From positions 1 to 50,490 of IMG/VR virus record IMGVR_UViG_3300046517_000960: 50,490 nucleotides of DNA. One strand, written 5' to 3'. Source of the DNA: a virus. Every line of letters begins with the position of its first letter. Positions within the stretch are counted from its first letter, which is position 1. A program made the translations under genes and the position numbers. Positions 16,952-47,098 of the stretch are shown here, in pieces. The notes under the pieces are model-generated. The model searched no databases. It was given only the letters and a program-made list of their open reading frames with translations, and was not told the origin of the DNA.

Positions 16952-17518
16952 GTGGCCGGCGAATATGACCAGCTGATCGCTCAGGCGGCGGCGAAATACA
17001 ACATCGACCCGGACATCTTCCGGCGCCTGCTCATGCGGGAAAGCCAGCTCAACCCGCGCGCGGTGAACCCCACGAGCGGCGCGGCGGGCATCGCTCAGTT
17101 CATGCCGGCGACCGCCCGGGGCCTGGGGATCGACCCGCTGGACCCGGCCCAGGCGATCCCCGCGTCCGCCCAGTATGTGCGCCAAAACCTCAACCAGTTC
17201 GGGGGTGATTACAGCCACGCACTGGCCGCCTATAACTGGGGTCCTGGCAATGTCGCGAGCAAGGGCCTCGCGGCGGCGCCCGCCGAAACAAGGGCGTATA
17301 TCGCCAACATTCTGCACGGATCGGCGCCGATGGCGGCGGGTGGGGCACCTCCCACGGCACCCGCCGTCAATCCCCCGGCACCGACGGCGCCGCCGGTTGG
17401 TTCCGCATCCCAGCCGGCGGCGTTGGACCTGGCGCTACTCGGCCAGCAACAAAGCCAGGGCGGCACTCTGGGCGACATGTTCATGGCGGCGGCGAAACGT
17501 GCCCAGGGGCTGGCCTGA
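16952..17518 (+). CDS. Virion-associated lytic transglycosylase
   Basis: A 188-residue GTG-start protein with an SLT (lysozyme-like) domain in residues 1-115. The catalytic glutamate is E30 in LMRESQLNP; the substrate-site motif GIAQFMPAT and the conserved YNWGPGNV segment follow. It cleaves peptidoglycan glycan strands to form anhydro-muropeptides, probably making a local hole during DNA ejection because it lies between internal-protein genes. The C-terminal tail is Pro/Ala-rich and ends in QQQSQGGTLGDMFMAAAK. The small size argues against it being the sole cell-lysis enzyme. Confidence 0.9.
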   Translation: MAGEYDQLIAQAAAKYNIDPDIFRRLLMRESQLNPRAVNPTSGAAGIAQFMPATARGLGIDPLDPAQAIPASAQYVRQNLNQFGGDYSHALAAYNWGPGNVASKGLAAAPAETRAYIANILHGSAPMAAGGAPPTAPAVNPPAPTAPPVGSASQPAALDLALLGQQQSQGGTLGDMFMAAAKRAQGLA

Positions 17519-20500: not shown

Positions 20501-23500
20501 CGGGCCACAAAATGGCGCTCCAGGGCATGGACACGGCGGGCGTGGTCAAATCCGACAAGGCTTACACCGATCAGACCATCAAATATCTCCGCGATGCCTA
20601 CCCGGACCCGTTCGACCGGGTGCGTATCTTCGCCGCCATGGATAACCTGAACCTGGAGATGCAGCGCGCGGCGGTGCTCAATCACGGCCACGCGCCGGCC
20701 CAGCGGGCCTCCACGGCGAACACCCTGACATACGCGCACGAACGGCCCGCCGACGTGGGTCCCGGCTTCATGGCGCGCCTCAAAGGCGATCTGGGCGCCT
20801 TGCGTCCGGCCCGGCTGCTGGCGCCCGAGCACGACGCCCTGCTCAACCCGGAAGGCCGTCCGCCACCGCCCCTGACCTATGCCACCAAGGGCGGCGTGGC
20901 CCGGCCCAAGACGGGCATGGAACGCGCCGCCGACAATGTCAGCCAGATATTCAACTCCGCCATGGGCAACATGGAGCGGATGATCGCCCAGATGCCGCCC
21001 GGGGCGCGGCCTTACGCCCGGCAGATCATGGATAAACTCGGGGTCTCGCACGGCGTGAAGCGGGCTCAACCCGTGACGTTTGACGAACGGGTCCGCAACT
21101 ATTCGCGCAAGGATATCATCCAGACCGAGGACGCGTTCCGCGACGCCGGGCTGGTCAACCGGGTGGGCCGGTTGAGCACCACGCCCGAACAGGACAGCAT
21201 GATCTGGCACACCCTGACGACGGGGCAGAAAAATTACCCGCTGGACCCGGCGAACCCGGCGGCGGGAAGCAAACCCATATCCGCCAACCTGCTGAAATTC
21301 GCTGAACGTGTTCGGCCCCTTTTGGACGCCGCGCACGAGCGGATGCGCGCCGCCGGCATCGATGTCGGCCACGCATCCGAGGGCGGCGGCTACGCGCCCC
21401 GCATCTGGGATGATTTCAAAATCCTGAGCGACCGAAGTGGTTTCGTCAAAGACATGACCGAACTCAACCGGCGGATCATCGACAAGGACGTGGACGGCGC
21501 GGCGGACAGTCCGGCCCGGCTGAGCAAATGGTGGCGGGAGAGCGACCAGACCGTGCGCGAGGACCCGAGGCTGGACCCCGACGCGCGGAACGCCATGGTC
21601 CAGATGGGGCGCAACCTCCGTCGCATCGCCAGAATAGACGAGGAACTGGCGGCGGGCGGGACCATCAACCCGACCACGCATAATCCAACGGCGCTGCGGG
21701 CCGAGCGGGACGCGCTGGTCAGGACCAACCAGGACCTGTTCGATGAGCACCGCGCCACGATCCGCGACCACATCGCCGCCCGCGAAGCCGACAACCGCCT
21801 CAACACCATTTCGATGGGGCATCCTTCAAATTTCGAGACATTTGGGCCGAAGTCCAGTTTCCTGAAGGGCCGCACGATGCCGCCCGAAACCGACCAGATC
21901 ATGCGGAAATACCTTGTGCGGAACCCGCGCGTGGGCCTGCCCAACTACTTCCAGGGCGTCGCCCGCAAGACCGCTTACCATGAGCTGTTCGGCAAGAACG
22001 GCGACGCCGTGGAGATTTTGCTTCAGCACATGGAGGACAACGGCGCGCACCGCGACATAAAAGATAACTTCCGCAAGATCGTGGAGCTGGTCACCGGGCG
22101 GTCGTTACGGGACCAGGACGCCGCCAGCGCCAACATCACCGGCCTGATCAGCGCCATGGGCGCGCTCCGGTCGCTGCCAGGAGCGTCGATCTCGGCGCTG
22201 GGCGAGCCCTTCGCCACCCTGCTCAACCGTGGTTCGCCCCGGATGATGTACAAGACCTTCACCAACCTGTTCGGGCAGTTCGTGGGCTCCGCGTCGGGCG
22301 CCGAGCGCATGGCGACACTCCGCGCCATGGGCGGGGTCTCCAGCCGGCTCCAGGGCGCCGCGTCGGCGGGCCGGTTCAGTGATTATGCCGGGACCCCCCG
22401 CATCGCCAACCTGATGAACGGGTTTTTCGAGTTGGCGCTGAGCCCGGCGATCCGCAACATCCGCGCGGCGACCCTGGGCGCCGGCACCGAACACATCAAA
22501 TTGCTCACGCATCTGGCGACCGATCCGGCGACCACCAGGGGCCAGCTCAACCGCCAGGACGATGCCAGGGGGATGCTCCGGGAATGGGGCGTGCCGGACG
22601 CCAGGATACCCGAACTCAGGCAGTGGCTGGACCAGTTCCAGGACATGCCCAGCCGTGCCAGGATCGCCCAGGACCCAACGGGCGAACTCTACGAGCTGGC
22701 CGCCAACCGGATGCTGGACCGGTTCAACCAGGACCCGACCGCCGCCGAGAAGCCCCTGGGCAGCCTCAAGTCCCCCTGGCTGAACATGATGACGCAGCTC
22801 ACCGCCTTCCCGTACGCATTCTGGCGCCACGTCATGGAGCCCATGCTGCACCGCGCCGCCTACAACCGCCAGCGCCAGTATGACCGCACCCTGGCGGCGG
22901 GCGGCACTCATAACGAAGCCCGGTTCCAGGCCGAGGTGGCGCGGTTCGGCGCCTGGGCCAACGCCACCACGGGAGCGATGGCGCTGCTCGCCGGGACCGG
23001 GCTCATGTATGCCGCCAGGACCTATTTGCTGAGCCATCAGACATGGCGCGACCACGAAGAAAAGGGCGATCTGCCCGACTGGCTGCTGGGCGCCACGATC
23101 TCGCAATCCGGGCTGGCCGGACCCCTGGACATAGTCAACCAGGCCGCCGCCGGGATACGCTATCACGCCGACGTGGCGGCGCTCACTCAGGGGCCTTATT
23201 TGTCATCCGACGTGCGTTACGTGATCGACGTGATCAAGGGGCTGGAAGGCGTGTTCGGTTCAGCACCGACCCCGGGGACCAACACCGAGAACTATAACGC
23301 GCTCTACGCGCTCACCCAGCTGGTGGCGAAGCCCGGCGCGCTCACCGGCCTGGTCTGGCTGGCCGAACGGGTCCCCGAGGGCGGACCCCTGGCGGCGCTG
23401 ATCACGGCGAGTTCGATCCTGGGCACGTCGGCCACCGCGACACGCGGGCTGGTGGACACCCTGGCAGGGGAGCGTGGGACCAAACTCCCCAAAGCCGGGG

Positions 23501-23769
23501 AAGAAGACATGGCCGACACCGGCCTGACCAACACGGACCTCCCGATGACCGACCTGGAACAACAAGCCGAAAGCGACGGCAAGCCCGGCGCCGGGGGCGG
23601 CGGCGTCACCAACCTCGCCGTGGGATTGCTGGACGACGTGCTCATGCCGCTCATGAAGATCGCGCCCACCTCGCTCAAGGTGGGGATCGGCGGGCTGGCG
23701 GCGGCGGGGGGTCTCGGCGGCCTGCTCAAACAGGGCCAGATGTATCGCTCCCAGGGTGTGCCGCCGTGA
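17518..23769 (+). CDS. Giant polyvalent ejection protein with zincin motif
   Basis: A 2083-residue protein, TGATG-coupled to the transglycosylase. Residues 1-60 carry three SDW-V/E-D repeats. Residues 100-260 are Gly/Ala-rich with hydrophobic runs (IAGMVLGAMGGGAAG). Residues 250-480 are a Pro-rich linker. At 860-864 is HELWH (H860, E861, H864), the zinc-protease signature in the context FAHELWHGIDH, typical of the LPD1-like module of large polyvalent proteins. The C-terminal half is helical and includes a probable membrane helix near 1820 (AMALLAGTGLMYAA). It is probably packaged and delivered to the host. The protease substrate is unknown. Confidence 0.7.
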   Translation: MAASDWVLDAPAPASTPLVTPPPASDWVLDDPAPAPAMSSTSPDPAATSDWEVDPPATEKQGFIGGTLAGFGAAGREAKQLATGQAFSDENIQPPVERTFMGNVGYGMAHGAPTIAGMVLGAMGGGAAGTAVGGPAGTAIGGALGGVAGGAATGFAQELIPAYQDARARGLNHDDAVSEAWTAAAASGALTGATAPLFGWAPFKSQVSNLLLHSLVTGPAVGAVQQGVITPAVTGQPTPSAEEIAAGAAANVVGGGILGAGMHYAPRIAGRLVGGRPGETVPPLVVSGPEAPVEPPGSVYGRELFTPPPEGVAPTAPVTPPVEPPPVVPPVEPPPVTPMTQVEPPPVAVTAPAVPTPIPAEPPVKEPPPDVTRPIAPQPEPEPGAVGTVPVAPVEPAAGIVQPAEPVEPVIRGPGPVEPVPGPEPGAVTPPARTEPEQPTPGEAPAPAQGGETPAPIPAPAEPTPTPGSPADVLARLDAEKAPDSAYRDALSTGSKEPLKAGETWRDRLVKWAESEKQPLQDTGGPEDPARIQRVLKSSADQISPKDMVLENLDYGGMTSAVIAPDGRLYQFRQGGDSRYDYENSHRDFRLDFPEHNYAEVTVYDGKQVGIRADQPYTSAQLRTINAIRSHTTRQGGETKVSHYDDKFNVVHVPAEGGTAEDLSKRGPGPFRGAARKTAAPGAEKPLPPRVRTAPRLAPKAPPEVGRPLTLEDYNYSRDVSLHRQAFHDALAGTGEDPRTAANKPMPEQISLLSTALKDKYGFTDVKVEEKPSVYLDKSGKERVSPGVEPRVTRDQMLNMHQNMQNMAHAMGWAPEVMSLDGRLNLQLVPRNFQGEHWMGQYSFGPKTIGISGGSNSFAHELWHGIDHYLSDTLNRNPNKQALLTWNGRAGTLDPHADPVQAAFAQVLNTMSHGSGAILQRRLVLERTAQQLNRAGQPTRAAIAAREQLDRLNSGATGGMRIPVSNFVGQAQGMQNPRYFASVHELFARMAEAYTGHKMALQGMDTAGVVKSDKAYTDQTIKYLRDAYPDPFDRVRIFAAMDNLNLEMQRAAVLNHGHAPAQRASTANTLTYAHERPADVGPGFMARLKGDLGALRPARLLAPEHDALLNPEGRPPPPLTYATKGGVARPKTGMERAADNVSQIFNSAMGNMERMIAQMPPGARPYARQIMDKLGVSHGVKRAQPVTFDERVRNYSRKDIIQTEDAFRDAGLVNRVGRLSTTPEQDSMIWHTLTTGQKNYPLDPANPAAGSKPISANLLKFAERVRPLLDAAHERMRAAGIDVGHASEGGGYAPRIWDDFKILSDRSGFVKDMTELNRRIIDKDVDGAADSPARLSKWWRESDQTVREDPRLDPDARNAMVQMGRNLRRIARIDEELAAGGTINPTTHNPTALRAERDALVRTNQDLFDEHRATIRDHIAAREADNRLNTISMGHPSNFETFGPKSSFLKGRTMPPETDQIMRKYLVRNPRVGLPNYFQGVARKTAYHELFGKNGDAVEILLQHMEDNGAHRDIKDNFRKIVELVTGRSLRDQDAASANITGLISAMGALRSLPGASISALGEPFATLLNRGSPRMMYKTFTNLFGQFVGSASGAERMATLRAMGGVSSRLQGAASAGRFSDYAGTPRIANLMNGFFELALSPAIRNIRAATLGAGTEHIKLLTHLATDPATTRGQLNRQDDARGMLREWGVPDARIPELRQWLDQFQDMPSRARIAQDPTGELYELAANRMLDRFNQDPTAAEKPLGSLKSPWLNMMTQLTAFPYAFWRHVMEPMLHRAAYNRQRQYDRTLAAGGTHNEARFQAEVARFGAWANATTGAMALLAGTGLMYAARTYLLSHQTWRDHEEKGDLPDWLLGATISQSGLAGPLDIVNQAAAGIRYHADVAALTQGPYLSSDVRYVIDVIKGLEGVFGSAPTPGTNTENYNALYALTQLVAKPGALTGLVWLAERVPEGGPLAALITASSILGTSATATRGLVDTLAGERGTKLPKAGEEDMADTGLTNTDLPMTDLEQQAESDGKPGAGGGGVTNLAVGLLDDVLMPLMKIAPTSLKVGIGGLAAAGGLGGLLKQGQMYRSQGVPP

Positions 23770-33381: not shown

Positions 33382-33731
33382 TGGCGTTCGAACTGCTCAC
33401 CCAGATCGAGGCGGCGAAGCTGCTGCGGTGTGGGCTCTCCAAGGTCCAGAAGCTGCGCCGCTCCGGGAAGCTCCCGTACCTGCCCGGACGGCCCGTGCTG
33501 ATATTACGCGAGGATATTGAGAATTGGCTCAGATCGACAACAATCACCACCGCCGCCGACCGGGCGAGGACCCCATCGACTGGACGGTCAGGACCGCCCA
33601 GCTCCAACAACACGCCAACCAGTACTGGTATATCCACTTCACCGAACTCCGCCCCGGCGCAGCCCGGAAGTATCGCACGGCGGTCGTATCGACACGGACG
33701 CGCGACAAGACGGAAGCATGGCACGAACTGA
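33381..33731 (+). CDS. Excisionase-like helix-turn-helix protein
   Basis: A 116-residue protein with ATG at 33381, overlapping the repressor stop. Residues 1-55 (FELLTQIEAAKLLRCGLSKVQKLRRSGKLPYLPGRPVLILREDIENWL) are a winged helix-turn-helix of the MerR/excisionase (HTH_17) type, with the recognition helix SKVQKLRRSGKL. The remaining 60 residues are Ser/Thr/Pro-rich and coincide with the integrase frame, which starts inside it. Such proteins direct integrase toward excision. It could instead regulate transcription only, but its overlap with the integrase supports the excision role. Confidence 0.65.
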   Translation: MAFELLTQIEAAKLLRCGLSKVQKLRRSGKLPYLPGRPVLILREDIENWLRSTTITTAADRARTPSTGRSGPPSSNNTPTSTGISTSPNSAPAQPGSIARRSYRHGRATRRKHGTN

Positions 33732-34720
33732 AAATATGGGGTCAGGACTACATAAAGGACATGCGCGCCATTCAGGGCCAGAGCGGGCCGCCCGCCCCGG
33801 TGCCCACGTTCAACGCGGCGATAGACCGTTATTTGTCTGACACAAAACCCCGACGCCTGAGCGACAGCCAGGACCGCTCGATGCCACGGTTGCGCGAAAA
33901 CCTGGGTCCCGATCCGGTGGACCAGATCGACGCCGCGCGACTGGCGGCGTTCCATGCCTGGGCGAAACGACGCGGCTTCAGCCAGGGCTCCATCCGGCAC
34001 TGGCTGGAACTGGCGCTGACCGTGCTGCGGCACGCGGCGGAATGCAAGGTGATCTCGCGTGACGCGGTGCCGCGTTACGCGCTGCCGGCGGTCCCGAGGC
34101 AACGCATCTACGCGCTCAGCGCCGAGGACAACACGCGGCTGTTCGACGCCGCCGTGGCATGGGGCGAGCGGGGTGACACCAGGATATCCCGGCGCACCTG
34201 TCTGTTCACATGCCTCGCCCTGGACAGCGGTCAACGCCGGGAAGCCATCCTGGGGTTGACCTGGGAGCGGGTGAACCTGAAACCCGGACAGGAAAGCATC
34301 GACTTCGTGGACCCCCATTACCAGCCCCGCAACAAGCGTCGCTGCCCCAGCCTGCCCATGACCGACCGGCTCCTGCGGGTCATGGCCAGGGCCGCCAGGA
34401 ATGTCGGGGGCACCGGCCTGGTATTTCCGCGCGGACTGAACCGGGCGGACTTCACGGCGCTCACCACGTCGGTCGGCCTGCCCCGGTTCACGCCGCACGT
34501 CGCGCGCCATACCTGGGCCACGCTGGCATTGACCCGGGGCGTGCCGCTGGCGACGGTCGCCTACATCCTGGCCGACAGTATCGCCACGGTGGACCGGACC
34601 TACAACCATCACACCACGGCGATGGCCCGGGAAAACCTGGAACGCTACAACCGGCCCGCGTCAGCGCCCGTATCCATCCAGCAGGACAAGGAAATCCCTC
34701 ATGGCATGGCTGCCGAATAG
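33524..34720 (+). CDS. int: Tyrosine-family phage integrase
   Basis: About 398 residues, read from a TTG at 33524 inside the upstream gene; no ATG lies in the first 230 bases, so the exact start is uncertain. The catalytic domain has R238 in LDSGQRREAILGL, a probable lysine at K271, H325 and R328 in TPHVARHTWA, and nucleophile Y360 in VDRTYNHH. The second catalytic histidine position holds D351 (ILADS), as in other phage members with a G/A-D-S block. The N-terminal arm and core-binding helices are present. It inserts phage DNA into the host chromosome; no attP was identified beside it. Confidence 0.88.
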   Translation: MAQIDNNHHRRRPGEDPIDWTVRTAQLQQHANQYWYIHFTELRPGAARKYRTAVVSTRTRDKTEAWHELKIWGQDYIKDMRAIQGQSGPPAPVPTFNAAIDRYLSDTKPRRLSDSQDRSMPRLRENLGPDPVDQIDAARLAAFHAWAKRRGFSQGSIRHWLELALTVLRHAAECKVISRDAVPRYALPAVPRQRIYALSAEDNTRLFDAAVAWGERGDTRISRRTCLFTCLALDSGQRREAILGLTWERVNLKPGQESIDFVDPHYQPRNKRRCPSLPMTDRLLRVMARAARNVGGTGLVFPRGLNRADFTALTTSVGLPRFTPHVARHTWATLALTRGVPLATVAYILADSIATVDRTYNHHTTAMARENLERYNRPASAPVSIQQDKEIPHGMAAE

Positions 34721-35607: not shown

Positions 35608-35677
35608 ATTTCGTGCGTCACACCATCCAACCGGACAGTTCCGCGCATGTAGCGATCCGACGGACCAAAATCAAGCA

Positions 35678-35708
35678 AGGTGTTGTGACACCTGGGTTTA
35701 CGTTGACA
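35678..35708 (+). promoter_or_regulatory. Possible promoter/operator of the primase-helicase gene
   Basis: The inverted repeat AGGTGT-TGTG-ACACCT (35678-35693) lies just before TTGACA (35703-35708), a perfect -35 box; the expected -10 position is weak (CAGGCT). The 244-base gap between the regulator and the assigned primase start at 35814 holds only this and the preceding hairpin. Confidence 0.35.
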
Positions 35709-35813
35709 CGCATGGCGCGCCAGGACAGGCTCGGTCCCCCTTTCGTGCCCATACCCATGCCCACCCCATCAACCCGGACAGAGGACGGCCCCGGCGAGGG
35801 GCTGGTTTCCCCC

Positions 35814-38246
35814 ATGAGCAAACACGTCCCGACCGACACCAACCAGAAATTCCTGAAGATGTTGTTCGGTAACGACTGGGAGGGCGCCACGGTGGTCTCG
35901 GTCCCGGTCCTGGGACCCGGGGTGCCCTGGCCGGCGCAGCGCGCCGGGAGCGGCATACTTAAACATTACGATCCCAGAGCGAATAACTACTACGCCGTGA
36001 GCCTGTTCGACCGGCCCGTGCTGCGGCGCAAGGAAAACTTCCTGGCGCTCTGCGTCCTGGCGGTGGACGACGTGGGGACCAAGGTGAGCCCCGACCGGCT
36101 CAGGGCGACCCTGGGTGAGCCCACCTATCGCATCGAGACCTCGCCGGGCAGCGAACACTGGGGCTACCGGCTGGCGCCCCGGGTGACCGACCTGACACGG
36201 GCCTCGCGGCTGATCAAGCGCGTGGTGGTGGGCCTCGCCGGGGGCAAGGACCCGGGCATGGAAGGCGTGACCCGTGTCATGCGGCTCCCCGAGGGCACGA
36301 ACACCAAACCCGAACTCAACCTGGGGCCGCGCGGTTGGGCCTGTGTGCCCCTTCCTTTTGACCCGGGGCGCGATCTGGACCCGGCGGTGGCCGAGGCCAA
36401 ACTCCCCTTGCCCGAGGATAAGATTTCTTCTGGTGGGACGGCGCCTGGAGCTGGCGATCCCGGCGGAGACCCAGGACTGGTCCTGGACCCAGGACCCGGT
36501 TCCGGTCCCGGCACGGTGACGGACCCGGTGGCGCGCGGCCTCTGGCGGCTGGGAAGGATAAAATCCAGCTCACGCACCCTGGCCGGGGGCGTCGGCTGGG
36601 ATGTGATCTGCCCGTGGGTGGAGGATCACACGCCGTCGGGCGCGGTGGATACCGGCACGGTTTACTTTCGCGGTGGGGGCTTCAAGTGCTGGCACGGGCA
36701 CTGTGACGGCAAGGGACCCGCCGAGGTCAGAGCCCGCGTGGATGAGCTGTTGCGGGCCGACAGCGGGAGCCTCGTGGGGCTCCAGGACCTGGAGCCGGCC
36801 ACCGGGAGGTTCGACGCCGTGGACCCGTCCAGGGTGCCTCCCAGCCCCGTCGCGGCGACGCCGGAACCTGACGTGGTAAGACGGTTCTGGGCGGAGACCG
36901 TGCTGCACGTCCAGGAGGATCGTTTTGTCAGCCTGCGGACTGGCAGCACCATGGGTGACAGCGCGTTTAACACGCTTTGGCTGCCTGAACTGCGGGACCT
37001 GAACGTGCTGCCGCCGGATGCCAGGGGTAACCCGGTGTCGCCGGCTCGGTGGTACAGAGGCAGTCCGAGGCACCGGCTGGTGGACACGAGGACGTGGTGG
37101 CCCGGGCGCGGTGAACTGTTCAGTGATTTACTGGAAGGCAGACGGGCCAGCTTCCTGAACGCGTGGGTGGATGTTCCCCGGCCCCTGATCCAGGTCCCGG
37201 ACGCCGACCTGGCGGTCCTGGTGAAAAACTCCCCCTGGGCTGAACTGGTCCGGAAACTGTTCGACGCGGCGACCGCCCGGCACTGGCTCAACTACCAGGC
37301 CATGATCCTGGCGGCGGTGGACATCAAGCCCGGGCACATATCGCTGACGACGGGCGCGCAGGGCGTGGGCAAGGAAATCATCCTCGTGCCCGTCATCAGG
37401 ACCCTGGGCGACCGGGCGCTGCAGATCGACCAGGGCGATCTCAACGGGACTTTCACCGACTGGCTGAAACGCCGCCTCGTGGTCCTGCCCGAGGTCCGTC
37501 GGACAACACGCGGCACCACGACGGATCATGACCAATACCAGCGGATCAAGGCGCTCTGCGATCCAGGCAAACCGTTGGTCAGGCTCAATGAGAAATACCA
37601 GAAGCCCACGCAGGTCCGGAACGTGTTCGTCCTGGTCATGACCTCGAACGAGGACAAGCCCATGAGTTTACCCCCGGATGATCGACGCATCTGGGTGATC
37701 GAGGCGCGGGACCCGGGCTGGGACCCGGCGGATTACCAGGACCTCGTGGCGTGGTACGACCAGTCCAGCCCCTGGGGCGGAACAGCCAATGTGTTCGCGG
37801 TGGGGGAATGGCTGATCCGGCGCTGGGACCCGAACACCATGCTCACGCGGGTCCTGGGCCACGCACCCATGACGCCGGAAAAGGCACGCCTGATCGACCT
37901 GAGCCGTGGCGACATCCATATCTGGGTCGAGGAACTGCTGAAACGGGTAACGCCCGATCCTCTCACGCTGCCGGATGCGTTTACCGCTTCGGACGTGATG
38001 GCGCGGATCGAGGACGCCGCGCGGACCGGTGGTGAAGGACTGTCGCGCTGGACCCCGGCGCCAGGGATCACGGCGGTGGGGCGTATCCTGAACGCGCTGG
38101 GGTGCGCGAGATTGAACGGCGGTCAGACGGTCCCGATGCCGGGCGGACCCATGCGGCGTCTGTGGGCGAAGCCCGGGGACCGGGTGTTCAGCGCCATGAG
38201 CGAGCGGGAACTCACGGACTGGCTGACGGCGAACCGTCGTGCCTGA
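35814..38246 (+). CDS. AEP primase-SF3 helicase fusion
   Basis: An 810-residue replication protein; the ATG at 35814 is preferred, although the frame stays open upstream for about 200 bases. The N-terminal part resembles RepB-like archaeo-eukaryotic primases: a conserved VLAVDDVGTKV strand, then ETSPGSEHWGYRLAP and RLPEGTNTKP. A CxWHxHCDG segment (CWHGHCDGK) probably binds zinc. The C-terminal helicase is of the DUF5906/D5 class, with a P-loop GAQGVGKE (residues 514-521). The usual Ser/Thr after the lysine is Glu, which may weaken catalysis. Later FVLVMTSNEDKPMSLPPDDRRIWV is a sensor/arginine-finger block. Confidence 0.85.
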   Translation: MSKHVPTDTNQKFLKMLFGNDWEGATVVSVPVLGPGVPWPAQRAGSGILKHYDPRANNYYAVSLFDRPVLRRKENFLALCVLAVDDVGTKVSPDRLRATLGEPTYRIETSPGSEHWGYRLAPRVTDLTRASRLIKRVVVGLAGGKDPGMEGVTRVMRLPEGTNTKPELNLGPRGWACVPLPFDPGRDLDPAVAEAKLPLPEDKISSGGTAPGAGDPGGDPGLVLDPGPGSGPGTVTDPVARGLWRLGRIKSSSRTLAGGVGWDVICPWVEDHTPSGAVDTGTVYFRGGGFKCWHGHCDGKGPAEVRARVDELLRADSGSLVGLQDLEPATGRFDAVDPSRVPPSPVAATPEPDVVRRFWAETVLHVQEDRFVSLRTGSTMGDSAFNTLWLPELRDLNVLPPDARGNPVSPARWYRGSPRHRLVDTRTWWPGRGELFSDLLEGRRASFLNAWVDVPRPLIQVPDADLAVLVKNSPWAELVRKLFDAATARHWLNYQAMILAAVDIKPGHISLTTGAQGVGKEIILVPVIRTLGDRALQIDQGDLNGTFTDWLKRRLVVLPEVRRTTRGTTTDHDQYQRIKALCDPGKPLVRLNEKYQKPTQVRNVFVLVMTSNEDKPMSLPPDDRRIWVIEARDPGWDPADYQDLVAWYDQSSPWGGTANVFAVGEWLIRRWDPNTMLTRVLGHAPMTPEKARLIDLSRGDIHIWVEELLKRVTPDPLTLPDAFTASDVMARIEDAARTGGEGLSRWTPAPGITAVGRILNALGCARLNGGQTVPMPGGPMRRLWAKPGDRVFSAMSERELTDWLTANRRA

Positions 38247-38306
38247 CTGACCCTGACGCCGGGGTGTCCTCGCGCGTGCGCGCGATGAGTACATACCCAA
38301 AAGCCT

Positions 38307-38363
38307 AAAGGCTCAGACGTAACAGGTTGTGGTCCCAAAGGCTCAGACGTAACAGGTTGTGGT
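38307..38363. repeat. Tandem 27-base direct repeats
   Basis: A 27-base unit beginning AAAGGCTCAGACGTAACAGG occurs at 38307-38333 and 38337-38363, separated by CCC, so the period is 30 bases. It lies just outside the nested palindrome. Confidence 0.9.
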
Positions 38364-38582: not shown

Positions 38583-38749
38583 GGGACAGCGCGCGGCGTT
38601 TGGGACACGCGCGGGACAACGCTATGGGACAAGCTGGACACGCTGGCGCCTGTCCCACGTGTCCTAAACCTGTCCCAAGCCTGTCCCAGGTGTGCCCATG
38701 GGACAGAAAAACGCCGCCCGGAGGCGGCGTTTCTGTCCCACTTTGTCCC
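38583..38749. repeat. Array of GGGACA / TGTCCC sites
   Basis: Forward GGGACA at 38583, 38602, 38613, 38626 and 38700; reverse TGTCCC at 38651, 38671, 38682, 38734 and 38744. Ten sites in 167 bases, the first four forward and the next three reverse. This iteron-like arrangement suits binding of an initiator or terminator protein. Confidence 0.7.
38709..38732 (-). terminator. Terminator of the leftward CobS/CobT-like operon
   Basis: A strong stem AACGCCGCC / GGCGGCGTT with a four-base loop, flanked by a second complementary pair GGGACAG / CTGTCCC. On the minus strand it is followed by TTTTT, as expected for a Rho-independent terminator; on the plus strand the T-run is only three bases. Confidence 0.75.
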
Positions 38750-38755
38750 GTTTGG

Positions 38756-39019
38756 TCAGTCCCGGACACGATGCCAGCGTGTCCCAGGGTCGTTTGGGTC
38801 ACGTGTCCAGCGTGCCACGAGACCCCCATCCGCCTGGGTCACGTCACATCGATCCGCCCCGGCGCCGTGCGAGCGCGCCCATTCGCCGGCCTCCCGCACG
38901 CTGTCAAAGCGCGCCACGGGGCCATGCCCATCGGGCCACGCGGGACCGAACGCCTGCGCCTGGACCTGGGTCCAGGCGGCGGGATGCACCGCGCGATACA
39001 CGCGTTTACGCGCGGCCAT
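38756..39019 (-). CDS. Small basic protein of the CobS/CobT-like operon
   Basis: An 87-residue protein with a strong GGAGG site seven bases before ATG. The sequence (RKRVYRAVHPAAWTQVQAQAFGPAWPDGHGPVARFDSVREAGEWARSHGAG) has an alpha/beta look with several aromatic and basic residues; the end is RWTRDPNDPGTRWHRVRD. No domain is recognised. It is the last gene of the leftward operon, before the terminator, and overlaps its neighbour by 14 bases. A role as a small substrate or adaptor of the ATPase-VWA pair is inference. Confidence 0.6.
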   Translation of the reverse strand: MAARKRVYRAVHPAAWTQVQAQAFGPAWPDGHGPVARFDSVREAGEWARSHGAGADRCDVTQADGGLVARWTRDPNDPGTRWHRVRD

Positions 39020-39188
39020 GGGCGAGCCTCCGCGCCAATACTTTCGCCTTTACCTCCGCCCATTGTTTCCGTGTCAGGCACCGGCCATACCGGTCCCGGT
39101 TGGCCTTGGTGTTCCGGCAAACCGTCCAGGGTTCCGGGCCAAGAATGGCCCGGATTTCTTCGGCGTTGGGGTACTCCGCTTTACGCAT
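39006..39188 (-). CDS. Small basic protein overlapping the VWA gene
   Basis: A 60-residue protein starting inside the last codons of the VWA protein, with GGAGG about 10 bases before ATG. It reads RKAEYPNAEEIRAILGPEPWTVCRNTKANRDRYGR and a basic helical end KQWAEVKAKVLARRLAHGRA. It is highly positively charged at the end. No family is recognised. The overlap shows translational coupling to the VWA partner. Confidence 0.55.
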   Translation of the reverse strand: MRKAEYPNAEEIRAILGPEPWTVCRNTKANRDRYGRCLTRKQWAEVKAKVLARRLAHGRA

Positions 39189-41181
39189 TGCCGGCGTCCT
39201 CCAGCATGTCGCAAAGCACGCCCAGACCGGTACGCGCCAACTGCGCCATATCCCGCACATTGACGCTCCAACCCGACGGAAACGCCGCCGCTACCGTCGG
39301 CGCGTCCATGCCGATGCCCACGGTCTCCACGCCCCAGGTCGCGGCGATATTGCACGCCTGGGTCACGCACGCGTTGCCGTGATCGCAGTCACCATCGGTC
39401 AGCACCATCAGGATGCGCCGTGCCGCCTGAACCTCAAGCAATGCCTGGGCGCCCCCCAGGATGGCGGGCGACAGGGGCGTGTACGCCTGAGGCTGTAATA
39501 TGTTCAACCGCGCGGCGTTGGCCCGCACCGGCTCCCCCATGCCCAGCAAGGGCACCAGCCTGGCGCCTGGACGGCTGGTGTCGCCGTGCCTGCCGCGTTC
39601 GGTTGACATGAACACTGTCACGCCAACCCTGGCGCCAGCCTGTTCAGCGGCACAAGCCAGATGCCACGCGGTCACCATGGCCATCCCCCAACGCGTTCCC
39701 ACTCTCATGCTCCCGGACCCATCGACCAATACGAGCAAGGCGGTATCGGTGCCGGCTTGTTCATGCCGTTGCGAGAACACATCCAAGGCGCCCGTTCCCA
39801 CGCGAACCAGCGCGCGGCGGTCCAGCCGCCCCGATGTCTCGCGATGCGTCACCCAGGTACGCTCCGGTGCCACGAGCAAGCGGGATATCTGGCCCGCCAG
39901 GATGGCACGCCCCGGTAGCGCCGCGTCCAATGCCGTGGCCATGTTCCGGCTTTCCGCCGCCCCGCTCCTCCCCTTCGTCATGCTCGTGTCGGTCACGTTG
40001 TGGTAGCCATGCAAGCCATGGGACCCAGGCGTGGGCCGCTCCCCGGTCTGTTCGACCACGCGGGCCACGATGTCATCCAGGCTGGCGGTCCCGTCCAGAC
40101 CAGGATCGTTCGGTCGCCAGTCCGACTGGCTGTCCAGGCTGACATCCGTGCCCTGCCCATCACCATGGCCTTGCCCGCCCGCCTTGCCTTCATCCGTACC
40201 GGCCTTACTCTCGCCGGCCTTACCCTCGGCCTCGGCCTTACCCTCGGCCTCACCCTCGGCCTCATCCTCGCCGGCCTCACCCTCGGCCTCGGCCTTACCC
40301 TCGGCCTCGGCCTTACCCTCGGCCTCACCCTCGCCGGCCTCACCCTCGCCGGCCTCACCCTCGCCGGCCTCACCCTCGGCCTCGGTCTCACTCTCGCCGG
40401 CCTCACCCTCGGCCTCGGTCTCACTCTCGCCGGTCTCGGCCTCAGGCTCGGTCTCAGGCTGAACAGGTGGAGGCGGGGGCGGCGGGGGCGGCGGGGGCGG
40501 CGGAGCGGCCATGGCTTGCTCCCGGCGAACCAGTTCAAGCGCCAGGGTCAGGCAATCGCTTGTGGAGCGGCACAAGCGCCCCTCGCGCAAAGCATACTCC
40601 ACAAGCGCCCGGACCTCGGCTGACATCGCCCCGGCAAGCCCGCGCGCGGATGGTATGAGGTAGCCATTGGCCAGCCGCCCCATGATTACATAACAGTAAG
40701 GCGCGTCCGCCAGCTTCGCCCCGATCACATAAGGCGCGGCCCGCACACTGTCCCGGTAATGCATGTGATCCGCGACACTAGCCAGCAATCCACGCAAGGC
40801 GGGATAGTGGCCCGCCTTGATCTCTTTCGCTTCGATCCTGACATCTTCCAGGCAGTTCACCCACCGCGTGACACGCGGGCCATACTGAACGGCGCGGCCC
40901 CATGCCTGCCAATCGGTGTGCAGCACGTGCATACACTCATGGGCGACGTAGCCTAAAATCCGGTCCGCTTCGCCCCGTGACAGGACCGCGTCCGCCCCTA
41001 AACCCGGCAGGTTCATATGAACCTGCCCCTGACTATTCACGTGCACGTTGGCGGTCATGCCGCCCCCGGTCCCGACATGGACCATGATTGGCTTGTCCGC
41101 CTGGGTCCGTCGCTGCGCCAGTATCTTACCGGCGGTCTCAGCCGCCGCCGTCGTCACGTCCAAATACAATACGCTTGCCAT
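39181..41181 (-). CDS. CobT-like VWA protein with HExxH metalloprotease module
   Basis: A 666-residue protein. Residues 1-130 hold a zincin-type module: HECMH at 81-85 (H81, E82, H85) and a downstream CLEDVRIE block (110-117) resembling the EDxRxE element of CobT-type gluzincins. Residues 227-239 are a run of prolines; 243-330 are Glu/Gly/Ala repeats. Residues about 480-640 form a von Willebrand A domain with MIDAS DGSGS (487-491), T568 and D596 (TDGD). It sits 23 bases after the CobS-like ATPase. In the cobaltochelatase the CobT-type partner acts with a MoxR/CobS ATPase; no CobN is present, so it is probably repurposed. Confidence 0.85.
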   Translation of the reverse strand: MASVLYLDVTTAAAETAGKILAQRRTQADKPIMVHVGTGGGMTANVHVNSQGQVHMNLPGLGADAVLSRGEADRILGYVAHECMHVLHTDWQAWGRAVQYGPRVTRWVNCLEDVRIEAKEIKAGHYPALRGLLASVADHMHYRDSVRAAPYVIGAKLADAPYCYVIMGRLANGYLIPSARGLAGAMSAEVRALVEYALREGRLCRSTSDCLTLALELVRREQAMAAPPPPPPPPPPPPPVQPETEPEAETGESETEAEGEAGESETEAEGEAGEGEAGEGEAGEGEAEGKAEAEGKAEAEGEAGEDEAEGEAEGKAEAEGKAGESKAGTDEGKAGGQGHGDGQGTDVSLDSQSDWRPNDPGLDGTASLDDIVARVVEQTGERPTPGSHGLHGYHNVTDTSMTKGRSGAAESRNMATALDAALPGRAILAGQISRLLVAPERTWVTHRETSGRLDRRALVRVGTGALDVFSQRHEQAGTDTALLVLVDGSGSMRVGTRWGMAMVTAWHLACAAEQAGARVGVTVFMSTERGRHGDTSRPGARLVPLLGMGEPVRANAARLNILQPQAYTPLSPAILGGAQALLEVQAARRILMVLTDGDCDHGNACVTQACNIAATWGVETVGIGMDAPTVAAAFPSGWSVNVRDMAQLARTGLGVLCDMLEDAGNA
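40190..40505 (-). repeat. Low-complexity Glu/Gly/Ala- and Pro-coding repeats
   Basis: On the plus strand short units such as CTCGGCCTC and TCGCCGGCC recur dozens of times, encoding the GEAGEGEAGE-like acidic linker and the poly-proline run inside the CobT-like protein. The tract is prone to slippage; it is coding sequence, not a CRISPR array. Confidence 0.85.
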
Positions 41182-41204
41182 AACCGTTACCCTTTCAGAT
41201 CAAA

Positions 41205-42692
41205 TCAGACCGGGACCTCGTCAAAATCCGCCGCCGCGTCCAGACCTGAACGCTGGCCGTTCGCATCACCTGTCGTGCCGCTCGGGTCCTGGCCCGCCAG
41301 CGCCCGCGCCACGGTGTTTTTATCCACGGCAAGCATACATTGTTGCCTCAGGGTCTCCCGCTCGGCCTCGGGCACGCAATCCTGGACGGCGCAACAAAAC
41401 GCGGTCTCAACGTCAATGCCATCGGCCAGCAACTCGGCCCAGGAAAACAGGCGCCGCAAGCCCAGGCCCTCGGTCAGGACCTGACTGTCAGCCGCCGCCC
41501 GGGTAGTTTGCGCCGCCGTCACCAACAAATCCGCCAGCGCCCGCGTGCAACCCGGGACCGCCGCCATGACGATCCCCGCCTCGGTCGCGGCGTCATGCCA
41601 GCCCATTTTGATCCTGGCGCCAAAACGATCCAACGTGGCCGCGTTCAACGGTTGCGTGCCATGAAAGCCACGGCGCGCCCCGCCCCCGGTCCCGTTGGTG
41701 TTGTCAGTGGCGCAGAATATGACCCCTGGCGCGGTCCTGATCCGCGCTCCGGTCTCTTGCACATATAAAGCCCGGTTCGGGGTCAGAACATTTTGCAGCA
41801 CGAACAAGGCACCGGGCCGCGCCACGCTTGGCTCATCGATGCATATGACAGCGCCCGCTGTCTGAATGGCCCGAACCAGCTGGCCAGCCTGAAACGTCAC
41901 GCCGCCCGCTTTGCCCGGGACCGTCATACCCACGAGCGTGGCGGCATCGGTGGAACTATCGCACGATATCAAAACGAATGGCCGGCCCAGACGCGCGGCG
42001 AGTTGCTGGCAAAATTCGGTCTTGCCACAACCTGCCGGCCCCCAGAGATACACGTTCCGGCCTCGCGCGATTTGCGTCAAAGCCACGGCGGTCCTCTCGG
42101 GCCAGATATAATCCGGGTTCACCATGGGCGTGTCAGGGTGTTTGCCGTCCCACAGGTTACAGGTCCGGGACCCCATGGCCCCCTTAACGCCAAATGCTTT
42201 GCGCCACGTCACGGTCTGGCCCAGCGGCGATGCCTGGATCACGGGCGCGTCAGGATCGATTGGCGCGACATGAACCTCGCGCACGACTTCCACGGTGACA
42301 GGTGGTTTGCGCGCGGCGATGACAAGCCCCCGGATTTTCTCGTCCAGAGCGATGAACCCGCCAGACACGACGGCGCTTCGGACCTCCGCGATCTCCCGCG
42401 CGATGATATCGGCCTCGGCGGTCTCAGCCTCGACCTCGGCCTCGGGAAGCAGCATGACGCTATCGTCAGGCACGGTCGGCATGGTGGGGTCCTCCGGCGC
42501 CCGGTTCGGGTCCGCTTCAAGGGTGGAAATGGCCTGGTGCAATTCGGTTATCGTCAGGTCGGAAACGGTTTTCCCGTTCATGACCCCCTCTTTCACCGAG
42601 AGGTATGCGTCGCCGCCTGTCAGCGCGGCGGCGCCAAGCAGGGTGCGAAGCCGGGACCGTAAAATGGCCCGGGCCTGGTGTGCTGGTGACAT
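41205..42692 (-). CDS. CobS-like MoxR AAA+ ATPase
   Basis: A 495-residue protein. The start at 42692 (MSPAHQ) has AGGA upstream; the longer frame is not conserved-looking. Walker A is GPAGCGKT (218-225), Walker B CIDEPSV (D286, E287), followed by an arginine-finger segment TLDRFGAR (R356). The block beginning SRTCNLWDGKHPDTPMVNP before the ATPase is a short N-terminal unit typical of CobS-like proteins. Residues 1-150 are partly disordered and acidic. ATP hydrolysis would drive remodelling together with the VWA-protease partner next door. Substrate is unknown, and no vitamin B12 gene is nearby. Confidence 0.88.
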   Translation of the reverse strand: MSPAHQARAILRSRLRTLLGAAALTGGDAYLSVKEGVMNGKTVSDLTITELHQAISTLEADPNRAPEDPTMPTVPDDSVMLLPEAEVEAETAEADIIAREIAEVRSAVVSGGFIALDEKIRGLVIAARKPPVTVEVVREVHVAPIDPDAPVIQASPLGQTVTWRKAFGVKGAMGSRTCNLWDGKHPDTPMVNPDYIWPERTAVALTQIARGRNVYLWGPAGCGKTEFCQQLAARLGRPFVLISCDSSTDAATLVGMTVPGKAGGVTFQAGQLVRAIQTAGAVICIDEPSVARPGALFVLQNVLTPNRALYVQETGARIRTAPGVIFCATDNTNGTGGGARRGFHGTQPLNAATLDRFGARIKMGWHDAATEAGIVMAAVPGCTRALADLLVTAAQTTRAAADSQVLTEGLGLRRLFSWAELLADGIDVETAFCCAVQDCVPEAERETLRQQCMLAVDKNTVARALAGQDPSGTTGDANGQRSGLDAAADFDEVPV

Positions 42693-42887
42693 GGTGTTAT
42701 CCTGTCCAATCAATGGGTTAGGTGTGACGCGGCGTGTGTTTTTGGGGTGCGCCGCAGCGCGCTTATGCCGACAAATCACGGGACAGGACACAACAAATTG
42801 TTGTGTGGATGTATTTTGATTGAGACAGTGGCGACAGGACACAATCCAGGCTAAACCCTGGAAACCTACAGGACAGGGGATCGCGCG
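42693..42887. promoter_or_regulatory. Divergent control region with palindrome and 12-base direct repeats
   Basis: Between the leftward CobS-like gene and the rightward zinc-protein gene. The palindrome ACACAACAA-A-TTGTTGTGT (42788-42806) is flanked by the direct repeat GACAGGACACAA at 42782-42793 and 42833-42844. No confident -10/-35 pair was found. Confidence 0.55.
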
Positions 42888-44161: not shown

Positions 44162-47098
44162 ATGCCGCTTGGAACCGCCGGTACCTTCGCGCCCAAACCC
44201 GTTGAGCCCGTACGGGGGTATTCCTTCACGGACTGGCAGGTCAACAATCCAACCAGTCCACCCCCAGGGGATCGGCTGGACAGTGCTTTTGACCTTACGA
44301 ACAACGCCTTAGGCGACACGCTCGACTGGGTTTCGACCAGCCTGAACACCGACGGCACGCTGCGTCCTGGTACGGTCGGAACCGCCCAGCTCACGCCGGG
44401 ATTGTTCGACCACGTCACGGACGGGGCCGTCGCTTCGCTCAAACCCTGGCTTCAGGCGGCGGAAAGCGCCGGGCGGAGCACGTCCACGGATGCCGACGCG
44501 GCGGCGATCTCGGCGGCGGAGGCGGCACAACACGCGTCCGATGCCGCGTTCGCCGCCGGCAGCGCCCAGACCTCCAGAAATGCCGCCGAAACCGCCATGT
44601 ATTCGGCTCAGGGCTACGCCACGATGGCGTCCGACGCCGCCAGCCTGTCGGGAAACAACGCCAACCACGCCAAGGGATCGGAGGCGGTCAGTCAGGCGTA
44701 TGCTGACGTTGGCATGGCCTGGGCCGAGCATATGCCGGACACGATCCCGCCGAATATCCTGGCGGTCATGGCGGTCACCGGCAACCACTGGTCGAGCCGC
44801 TGGTGGGCCTCCCAGGCGGCGATTGCCCTCTCCCAGATCAGCACCCTGATCCATGACCTCGTCATCCCGCCGCTGGCCACGACCTATGATTATACGTACG
44901 TCGCCGTCGCCGGGCAGACCGTGTTCACCGGGACGGATTTCTTCGGTAAAACATTGGCTTACACGCCAGGACCCACGCAGTCGCTGAGTGTGTACGAGAA
45001 CGGGCTCCTACGCACCCCGACCAGCGATTACACGTCCAGCGCCAACACCATGACCATGACGACGCCCTGTCAGGCCGGCGATATCGTCCGGGTCTGGGTC
45101 CAGGGGCTGGGCACCCAGTACATCCCCACTTCCGGCGGCACCATGACGGGGCCGCTCACCCTGGCCGCCGATCCCATCGCGCCGATGCACGCCGCGACGA
45201 AGAACTACGTGGATGTGAACTTCCTGAACCTCGCTGGCGGCATCATGGCGGGACCCATCACCCTGGCGGCGGACCCCGTCGCCAACTTCCAGCCCGCCAC
45301 CAAAAATTACGTCGATACCAGGTACTTACCCCTCACGGGCGGCGTCCTCGTGGGGGCGCTCACCTTGGCGGCGGACCCGGCGGGACCGCTCCAGCCTACC
45401 CCCCGTCAGTATACCGACGCGCATTACCTGGCGTTCACGGGCGGCACGCTCACCGGACCCCTGACCTTGGTTGGGGACCCGGGCGCTCCGATGCAGCCGG
45501 CGACGAAAAACTACGTGGATGTCGGTTTCCTGCCGATTTTCGGCGGTGTTCTGACCGGAAACCTGATCCTGGTGGGCAACCCGACGGCGCCGATGCATCC
45601 GGCGACCAAGGATTACGTCGATACCAAACCCCCCTTGGGGGGACCCTATCTGGCGCTGGCCGGCGGCGCCATGCAAGGCGGTCTCACTTTGGTGGGCGAT
45701 CCCATCGGGGATCGTCAGGCGGCGACCAAGCAGTACGTGGATAACGCCGTCCTGAATGTGGTGGTGCCGCCCACGCCGCCGGTTGAAACCGGGGATTTCC
45801 TGCCTTTGAGCGGGGGCGAGCTGTCGGGACCGTTGACCGTCACCCACGATGTCGCGTTCACCCCGGCGGTCGGCGGGTCGATTGGATTGCAGGTCAACTG
45901 TTCGGTATCGGGCACCATGGGTGCCGTCGGCGGCGTGGCGCCGTTCGAAATCCTGGTTCCGAACAACAGCCTGGACAGCACCGGCAACCCCGGCTCGTCG
46001 TTCTTCGCGCAAACCATCCAGCATAATTTTGGTGGTACCAGGGGCAATCATGGCTGTCTGAACATGATCATGCAGCAGACATCGAACGTGCTGGACGCCG
46101 GCACGTCGGTGTTCATCAATCCGTTGTTCAGCCAATTATACTGTAATCACAGCGGCGGCGGCAGTGGCAGCGCCATCTCGTCCGCCGCCATGACAATCGT
46201 GGGAGGCACGGGTTGGGGCCTGGTCGAGGGGTCGGAACTCGGGGTCACCATCAATTCGTCCGGCGTGGCGTCGGCTTTCGTGGAAACCTACATCTGGAGC
46301 GGCACGAACCGCGCGACGAATTTCGATGCGATGCAGGCCTACGCGGTCGTTCCTGGCAGCGGCACGGCACCGCGCGCGATATGGCAACTGGGCCGTGACG
46401 GAGATGCGTGGCCGGTGGACGCCAACGGCTGGTTGCTGACGACGGTACAGCAGATCAACAACAATCCGGGTATGGCGCGGCGTATGCCGCAGGCGTGCGC
46501 CGGGGGCCTGGATTTCTCGAAGATCAATTTCGCCACCGCCGCCTTCCGCTCGCCCGGGGTGTCGATTGAAGGCACCCTGCTCAGGATTGGTCCGGGTTTC
46601 ATTGGCGAGGACAGCAACGGCCTCGTCATCAACGCGACCGGCGCCGTCGGTTCGATCAGCGCCATCGCCGCTGGCGGCGGCGGCTATCAGGTCAATGACC
46701 AACTTTATGACGGCATCGGTGGGATCGCCCTGGTCACAGGCGTGAACGCGACAACCGGCGCGGTCACGGCGGCGAATTACATCGCCGGCAAGGCGCCGCA
46801 CTTTTTTGGTCCCGGAGCGCCCGATCTCGTCGCGACGACCGGCGGGTCCGGGACCGGCGCGGATTGCGTGCTGCATATGCTTTGGACGCCCAGGGGTGTG
46901 CTGTCGATCCAACAGGCGGGTGGCCTGACGGCTTACGGCGGTCCGGTGAACACGGCGCAGGGTATTGGCGTGTTTGGTGTCGGGGCGCCGGGCGCACGCC
47001 CGACCGTGAACGGTTCGCGCGGCGGTAACGCCGCGCTCGCGTCCCTGCTGACCGCGCTGGCGAGTTACGGTTTCCTCAATGATGGCAGCGTGGCGTGA
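44162..47098 (+). CDS. Large tail fibre / receptor-binding protein
   Basis: A 978-residue protein with AGGAG eight bases before ATG. Residues 1-230 include an Ala-rich coiled-coil segment; about 240-325 contain a T7-fibre-like N-terminal module (YDYTYVAVAGQTVFTGTDFF and YENGLLRTPTSDY). Six repeats of about 36 residues follow (326-540), each with GG---GP-TL---DP-AP---ATK-YVD. Residues about 545-920 form a globular module duplicated in the 48442 gene, with FFAQTIQHNFGGT, CNHSGGG and VETYIWSG blocks. The C-terminus is a Gly-rich TGGSG-type tail. It would recognise the host surface. Confidence 0.88.
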   Translation: MPLGTAGTFAPKPVEPVRGYSFTDWQVNNPTSPPPGDRLDSAFDLTNNALGDTLDWVSTSLNTDGTLRPGTVGTAQLTPGLFDHVTDGAVASLKPWLQAAESAGRSTSTDADAAAISAAEAAQHASDAAFAAGSAQTSRNAAETAMYSAQGYATMASDAASLSGNNANHAKGSEAVSQAYADVGMAWAEHMPDTIPPNILAVMAVTGNHWSSRWWASQAAIALSQISTLIHDLVIPPLATTYDYTYVAVAGQTVFTGTDFFGKTLAYTPGPTQSLSVYENGLLRTPTSDYTSSANTMTMTTPCQAGDIVRVWVQGLGTQYIPTSGGTMTGPLTLAADPIAPMHAATKNYVDVNFLNLAGGIMAGPITLAADPVANFQPATKNYVDTRYLPLTGGVLVGALTLAADPAGPLQPTPRQYTDAHYLAFTGGTLTGPLTLVGDPGAPMQPATKNYVDVGFLPIFGGVLTGNLILVGNPTAPMHPATKDYVDTKPPLGGPYLALAGGAMQGGLTLVGDPIGDRQAATKQYVDNAVLNVVVPPTPPVETGDFLPLSGGELSGPLTVTHDVAFTPAVGGSIGLQVNCSVSGTMGAVGGVAPFEILVPNNSLDSTGNPGSSFFAQTIQHNFGGTRGNHGCLNMIMQQTSNVLDAGTSVFINPLFSQLYCNHSGGGSGSAISSAAMTIVGGTGWGLVEGSELGVTINSSGVASAFVETYIWSGTNRATNFDAMQAYAVVPGSGTAPRAIWQLGRDGDAWPVDANGWLLTTVQQINNNPGMARRMPQACAGGLDFSKINFATAAFRSPGVSIEGTLLRIGPGFIGEDSNGLVINATGAVGSISAIAAGGGGYQVNDQLYDGIGGIALVTGVNATTGAVTAANYIAGKAPHFFGPGAPDLVATTGGSGTGADCVLHMLWTPRGVLSIQQAGGLTAYGGPVNTAQGIGVFGVGAPGARPTVNGSRGGNAALASLLTALASYGFLNDGSVA

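Follow-up and report, generated by a model that had tools for sequence, protein, structure and literature searches.

The window analysed here, a whole IMG/VR virus record of 50,490 bases, encodes structural proteins of a phage (terminase, portal, major head and tail) together with a tyrosine integrase, a Cro/C1-type HTH protein, an Enc34-type ssDNA-binding protein, a DUF2800/PD-(D/E)XK nuclease and a SNF2-type helicase. Between a DUF5906 primase/helicase-like gene and a tail gene lies a minus-strand operon of four genes (Table 1), two small ones and those of a CobS-like ATPase and a CobT-like protein. The near relatives of the phage show synteny of this block, i.e., primase, cobT-cobS, divergent small genes and tail gene. 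The four ORFs and the terminator described in the initial annotation were recovered: start and stop codons overlap between cobT and small ORF 1, and again between the two small ORFs, and the hairpin that follows them, whose stability was equalled in 0 of 200 shuffles, is likely the terminator of the operon. The motifs it had named (those of the ATPase, the VWA MIDAS, HECMH and EDVRIE) and their residue numbers (K224, E82) are all correct. A scan of the operon region for sigma-70 promoters gave no more matches than expected by chance.

Table 1. Positions of the operon, its motifs and adjacent features in the window.
Feature	Positions	Strand	Evidence or remark
CobS-like MoxR-type AAA+ ATPase, 495 aa	41205-42692	-	PHROG 249, Pfam and PDB matches
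Walker A GPAGCGKT, residues 218-225 (K224)	42018-42041	-	G-P-x-G-x-G-K-T in 8 aligned sequences
Walker B ICIDEP, residues 283-288	41829-41846	-	Invariant in 8 aligned sequences
CobT-like protein (zincin-like domain, acidic linker, VWA domain), 666 aa	39181-41181	-	PHROGs, AF2
N-terminal zincin-like (CobT_N-related) domain, residues 1-225	40507-41181	-	AF2, Foldseek, hhalign
HECMH, candidate zinc site and catalytic Glu, residues 81-85	40927-40941	-
LEDVRIE block, candidate third zinc ligand (D113 or E112), residues 111-117	40831-40851	-
Linker, proline-rich then acidic low-complexity, residues 226-365	40087-40506	-	pLDDT <50 over 243-365
VWA MIDAS DGSGSM, residues 487-492	39706-39723	-	D487, S489, S491 and M492 invariant
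VWA TDG motif, residues 595-597	39391-39399	-	T180-D181-G182 of alignment A2 invariant
Small basic ORF 1, 60 aa	39006-39188	-	Start overlaps cobT stop
Small ORF 2, 87 aa	38756-39019	-
Hairpin with U-tract	38698-38741	-	-36.9 kcal/mol, z -5.65
Perfect palindrome ACACAACAAATTGTTGTGT	42788-42806	.	Divergent intergenic region; single copy in window
Tyrosine integrase	33524-34720
DUF5906 primase/helicase-like protein	35613-38246
Divergent tail gene	44162-47098		Adjoins operon in window and near relatives

The ATPase matches PHROG 249 (E 2.6e-48), the Pfam families AAA_5 (7e-15) and CbbQ_C (1e-8) and, among solved structures, CobS (9ujv, E 1.9e-24), NorQ (1e-19) and the AAA domains of midasin. The CobT-like protein matches PHROG 1576, 17276 and 459 (3.5e-19, 1.6e-8 and 5.7e-4). 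The small genes are different. The first is a real ORF, shorter than originally drawn (the longer version begins within cobT), and had no convincing match anywhere tested; the second has a homologue in a single relative (L043, 35% over 79 aa), and several relatives encode a different basic ORF of about 50 aa at this position. We thus rejected the proposal that the small proteins are conserved partners of the pair, given that they lie outside the conserved unit and are poorly conserved. The palindrome upstream is possibly an operator. Its perfect form is not kept in relatives, and a link to lysogenic control is not supported, even if the integrase and the Cro/C1-type protein are present. No tRNA or Rfam match pointed to a host, and a scan of genome contigs with the ATPase alignment found neither host nor prophage.

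Several other features of the window were observed. Of the 27 GGGACA/TGTCCC words in the window, 11 crowd into some 200 bases (38583-38785) in the interval from the primase-like gene to the operon's end, compared with at most 4 per 300 bases in first-order Markov simulations; a similar cluster occurs in the relative L028 and is missing from several others. It is a possible origin or protein-binding array. Directly 3' of the primase-like gene, a repeat of 27-28 bases (AAAGGCTCAGACGTAACAGGTTGTGGT) is present in two tandem copies (38304-38363), and the same gap holds other short repeats (TTTTCGCATTGTCG) in some relatives. Elsewhere (17518-23769), an ORF of 2083 aa, whose sole domain match is a sub-threshold one to the large polyvalent protein domain LPD1, possibly encodes a giant injected or virion-associated protein.

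Domains of the CobT-like protein

The AF2 model of the N-terminal domain (pLDDT 90.2, pTM 0.86) consists of short strands, a helix carrying HExxH (69-88) and a helix carrying ED (102-122). H81, E82, H85 and the pair E112-D113 are invariant among 21 viral sequences, and an HExxH followed by ED within 18-45 residues occurs only once in the six frames of the whole 50 kb. Covariation suggests D113 or E112 as the candidate third zinc ligand. The best Foldseek matches of this domain are viral CobT-like proteins (phage CobT, 1.3e-7), including one of the haloarchaeal virus HHTV-2, and a search of BFVD gave a weak, partial match to viral SprT-like metalloproteases (E 0.09, prob 0.98). The fold search of the PDB with the N-domain returned only noise, and its sequence-profile matches in the PDB to designed armadillo repeats were discarded as spurious.

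The HExxH module can be identified as the N-domain of CobT because distant viral relatives have clear matches to the Pfam families CobT_N (PF06213) and CobT_C (PF11775). Furthermore, the viral N-domains align with those of cellular CobT (n=20 cellular) with an hhalign E of 6e-5, ungapped across the site. This profile alignment places HExxH opposite S-M-A-L-R; a pairing by eye with another motif of true CobT, HDxxxH, was discarded in its favour.

The hallmarks of MoxR/VWA pairs are intact in the two proteins (Walker A/B in the ATPase, and MIDAS with DxSxS, T and D in the VWA domain). The full-length model matches the VWA domain of NorD in NorQ-NorD complexes (Foldseek 5.8e-11) and also the MIDAS domain of midasin. 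The contigs of many relatives (G001, G002, G003, G006, G007, G008) start or end within the linker-coding region, and the low-complexity acidic linker of this gene appears to break metagenome assemblies.

The zinc site in viruses, plasmids and cellular CobT

Scans of viral contigs with the ATPase retrieved 8 relatives at first and then 24, and in all 24 of these IMG/VR loci the ATPase is next to a gene for a CobT-like protein that has both HExxH and ED. The motifs whose loss in relatives would have spoken against the initial annotation are therefore kept. The ATPase and alignment queries did better than single CobT-like sequences: the window protein as sole query found nothing in viral contigs, and the single-sequence viral scan with the CobT of CRP-810 gave no locus. 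HExxH and ED are intact in every alignable locus of the T4-like cyanophage type (78/78) and of the Rhizobium/Klebsiella type (28/28), counts that should be read with care, as loci within each viral search are related and amount to closer to seven independent lineages than to a hundred. Among 10 reference elements, HExxH is likewise complete in 9, including Vibrio ICP2 (with VD in place of ED), CRP-810, S-CREM1, Gordonia Jumbo and an island of the SXT/IncC type. On plasmids, HExxH and ED are present in the MOBH group (IncC, pCAR1 and others), and five copies on conjugative plasmids or islands carry HExxH.

The exception is the clade of Pseudomonas phage hairong (L038, L266, L267), which has SE[IV]xK and ES at the two positions. 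HExxH and the D of ED were thus lost together, as expected if both form one metal site. The CobT of this clade is a natural zinc-site-dead version that can serve as a comparison in tests of function.

Cellular CobT differs at the aligned site. There, [SA]-x-A-L-[RK/Y] replaces H-E-x-x-H in 81 of 81 sequences and EQ replaces ED in 78 of them, in a set of alphaproteobacterial genes that are all close to one query and so do not represent 81 independent cases. This comparative evidence, which is the new element of our analysis, indicates that viruses and plasmids have an intact HExxH, which the true chelatase lacks. The description of CobT as a peptidase has been called a mistake (PMC8651126), a view that the sequence evidence gathered here opposes.

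The retention of the site bears on the possibility that the pair is a remodelling chaperone only, in which zinc would be structural or metal-sensing and the target would be opened uncut, e.g., for metal insertion as in NorQ-NorD. The nearest solved relatives of the VWA protein and the ATPase (CobS, NorD/NorQ and midasin) are not known to cut, and phages of the hairong clade retain the pair after loss of the site, which shows that the complex can serve a purpose in its absence. However, essentially all other lineages have kept the catalytic Glu of HExxH in addition to the metal ligands, which counts against a chaperone devoid of protease activity because a structural zinc site needs no Glu. We give this possibility a modest chance, well short of a likely one.

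ATPase phylogeny and the vitamin B12 annotation

Virome studies routinely count viral cobS and cobT among the auxiliary metabolic genes for vitamin B12. In the published form of this idea, phage CobS and CobT act as an auxiliary cobaltochelatase that joins the CobN of the host and raises vitamin B12 output (PMC8651126). The homology behind it is real, as attested by the match of the ATPase to solved CobS and by the CobT_C and CobT_N matches of distant viral homologues, and cellular CobS/CobT share with the window pair a homologous ATPase, the N-domain, the acidic linker and the VWA domain. The resemblance does not extend to the features that define the enzyme. Cellular CobT is devoid of HExxH and ED, acts together with CobN and, like CobS, passes its equivalog model, whereas the window proteins fail theirs: the ATPase scored 90.9 bits for TIGR01650 (cut-off 558.6; true CobS control 641.3) and the CobT-like protein 21.7 bits for TIGR01651 (cut-off 759.1; true CobT control 994.8). 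The residues typical of true CobT ([SA]-x-A-L-[RK], EQ) are missing, with HECMH and ED in their stead. CobN (PF02514) is absent from the record and from six near relatives, with positive results in control genomes; this search covers phage genomes only and the host may supply the protein. The record also has no large subunit of ribonucleotide reductase, and its Rfam scan gave no match, e.g., to a cobalamin riboswitch. Finally, relatives of the pair occur on plasmids, where they adjoin recombination genes. The initial annotation had already reported that the phage has no CobN and had judged cobalt chelation unlikely, and both points are supported: CobN is missing, the equivalog cut-offs are missed and a chelatase-type N-domain is absent. 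We regard a role in B12 synthesis as improbable.

The phylogeny of the ATPases goes in the same direction. In a tree of AAA cores rooted with NorQ, which has only two outgroup sequences and where some branches are still long, true CobS forms one clade (100/100) that lies within the mobile-element ATPases, with the marine CRP-810/T5S1 phages as its neighbours. The window ATPase groups with that of the Microcystis phage Mae-Yong1326-1 in a separate branch (100/98), and its distance from true CobS also speaks against the chelatase. Constraining all mobile-element ATPases to one clade was rejected once long branches had been removed (AU p = 0.003). Since true CobS is nested within the ATPases of mobile elements, the cellular chelatase looks like a derived, zinc-dead branch. 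Fitting the zinc site to this tree takes two changes, and the simplest account is that it was lost twice, once toward the cellular chelatase and once in the hairong clade. The comparative evidence as a whole indicates that the B12 label of the viral pair is probably wrong and that the true chelatase is probably the branch that lost the protease signature.

A broader scenario, which we put forward tentatively and would not yet expect to hold in full, is that the CobST of phages and plasmids is an active ATP-powered zincin protease or remodeller for DNA replication or recombination, that the CobST of B12 synthesis arose within this mobile-element family by loss of the zinc site and recruitment of CobN, and that very many viral genes carry a wrong B12 label. 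The sequence evidence makes a long-standing annotation directly testable and suggests an origin for the chelatase motor.

Predicted activity and target of the pair

The NorQ-NorD, CbbQ-CbbO and midasin systems function in the maturation of metal centres or of ribosomes. They combine a MoxR-type ATPase with a VWA/MIDAS protein, as does the operon in the window, and their structural match to it concerns the VWA part only. The idea of a protease or remodelling system, already present in the initial annotation, is supported by the intact HExxH...ED, Walker A/B and MIDAS signatures. On these grounds we think that the operon rather probably encodes an ATP-driven protein remodeller or metalloprotease, an activity predicted here in preference to that of a chelatase. 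It would be a mobile-element version of a MoxR/CobS-type AAA+ ring, with a VWA partner bearing a zincin-like head. If the analogy with NorQ-NorD holds, from which the mechanistic details are borrowed (PMC13036017), a hexamer of the CobS-like protein would attach to the VWA domain and, powered by ATP, twist its partner or pull on it. A target protein would be held by the VWA MIDAS or by the N-domain, within reach of the HExxH head owing to the flexible acidic linker, and would be cut or opened by that head.

As to the target, we would guess at a protein of DNA replication or recombination, because the pair is usually found in that neighbourhood and also resides on conjugative plasmids, which make no virion. 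In most reference phages its neighbours are replication or recombination genes, and genes of the ssb-bet/recT-exo type (lambda exonuclease) adjoin it on three MOBH plasmids and on an IncC-type island. A location in the early module is common among phage genes whatever their function. The same context is relevant to the proposal, made for jumbo phages that encode a MoxR/metallopeptidase-vWA pair, of a machine for virion assembly with peptidolytic processing (PMC7824862), which would fold and clip structural proteins. The architecture is that of the published case, and the divergent tail gene adjoins the operon in the window and in near relatives. Yet reference phages mostly place the pair with replication genes, and its HExxH form on plasmids that produce no virion argues against assembly as the general function, to which we assign only a small chance.

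Defence had also been suggested, and a prophage module for defence, superinfection exclusion or counter-defence would fit a phage with an integrase and a Cro/C1-type HTH protein, and MoxR-vWA pairs are known in conflict systems (PMC7159879). But an effector domain is absent, PADLOC gave nothing beyond weak, generic AAA matches to IetA/Mad, and cobS belongs to the core genes of T4-like cyanophages (PMC3037559), unlike a patchily distributed defence gene. We consider such a role very improbable.

The remodeller or protease that we favour is not the new system that had been suggested as a possibility, given that viral cobST (PMC8651126) and the jumbo-phage pair (PMC7824862) have been described before; the window adds a further member to a type of pair that is widespread in viruses and plasmids. 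Viral CobST-like pairs (PHROG 249 with 1576/17276/459; Mae-Yong1326-1, ICP2, CRP-810 and T4-like cyanophages) form the same two-gene unit with the same domains, HExxH and MIDAS, the phage Mae-Yong1326-1 showing 39% identity over 455 aa for CobS and 30% over 698 aa for CobT. They differ in their usual annotation as B12 auxiliary metabolism, and the clade of the window forms a separate lineage, to which the small ORFs downstream are peculiar. The group 2.2 jumbo phages (PMC7824862) have, as in the window, a MoxR ATPase gene adjoining that of a vWA protein whose N-terminal part is a metallopeptidase domain, a likeness drawn from domain order, motifs and description, whereas the window phage is of 50 kb and has an integrase. 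The cassette of MOBH plasmids (IncC, pCAR1 and NDM plasmids) also encodes a CobS-like ATPase and an HExxH-VWA protein as neighbours or near neighbours. It differs in having a DUF3150 gene, none being recognised as such beside the window pair, and several cassettes adjoin ssb-bet/recT-exo. Genes for the CobS-like ATPase, DUF3150 and the HExxH-VWA protein were observed in five such loci (L149-L153, on pCAR1, P. mirabilis pPM54-NDM and K. electrica, IncC and X. citri plasmids); on pCAR1, the annotation given to the VWA gene is NorD.
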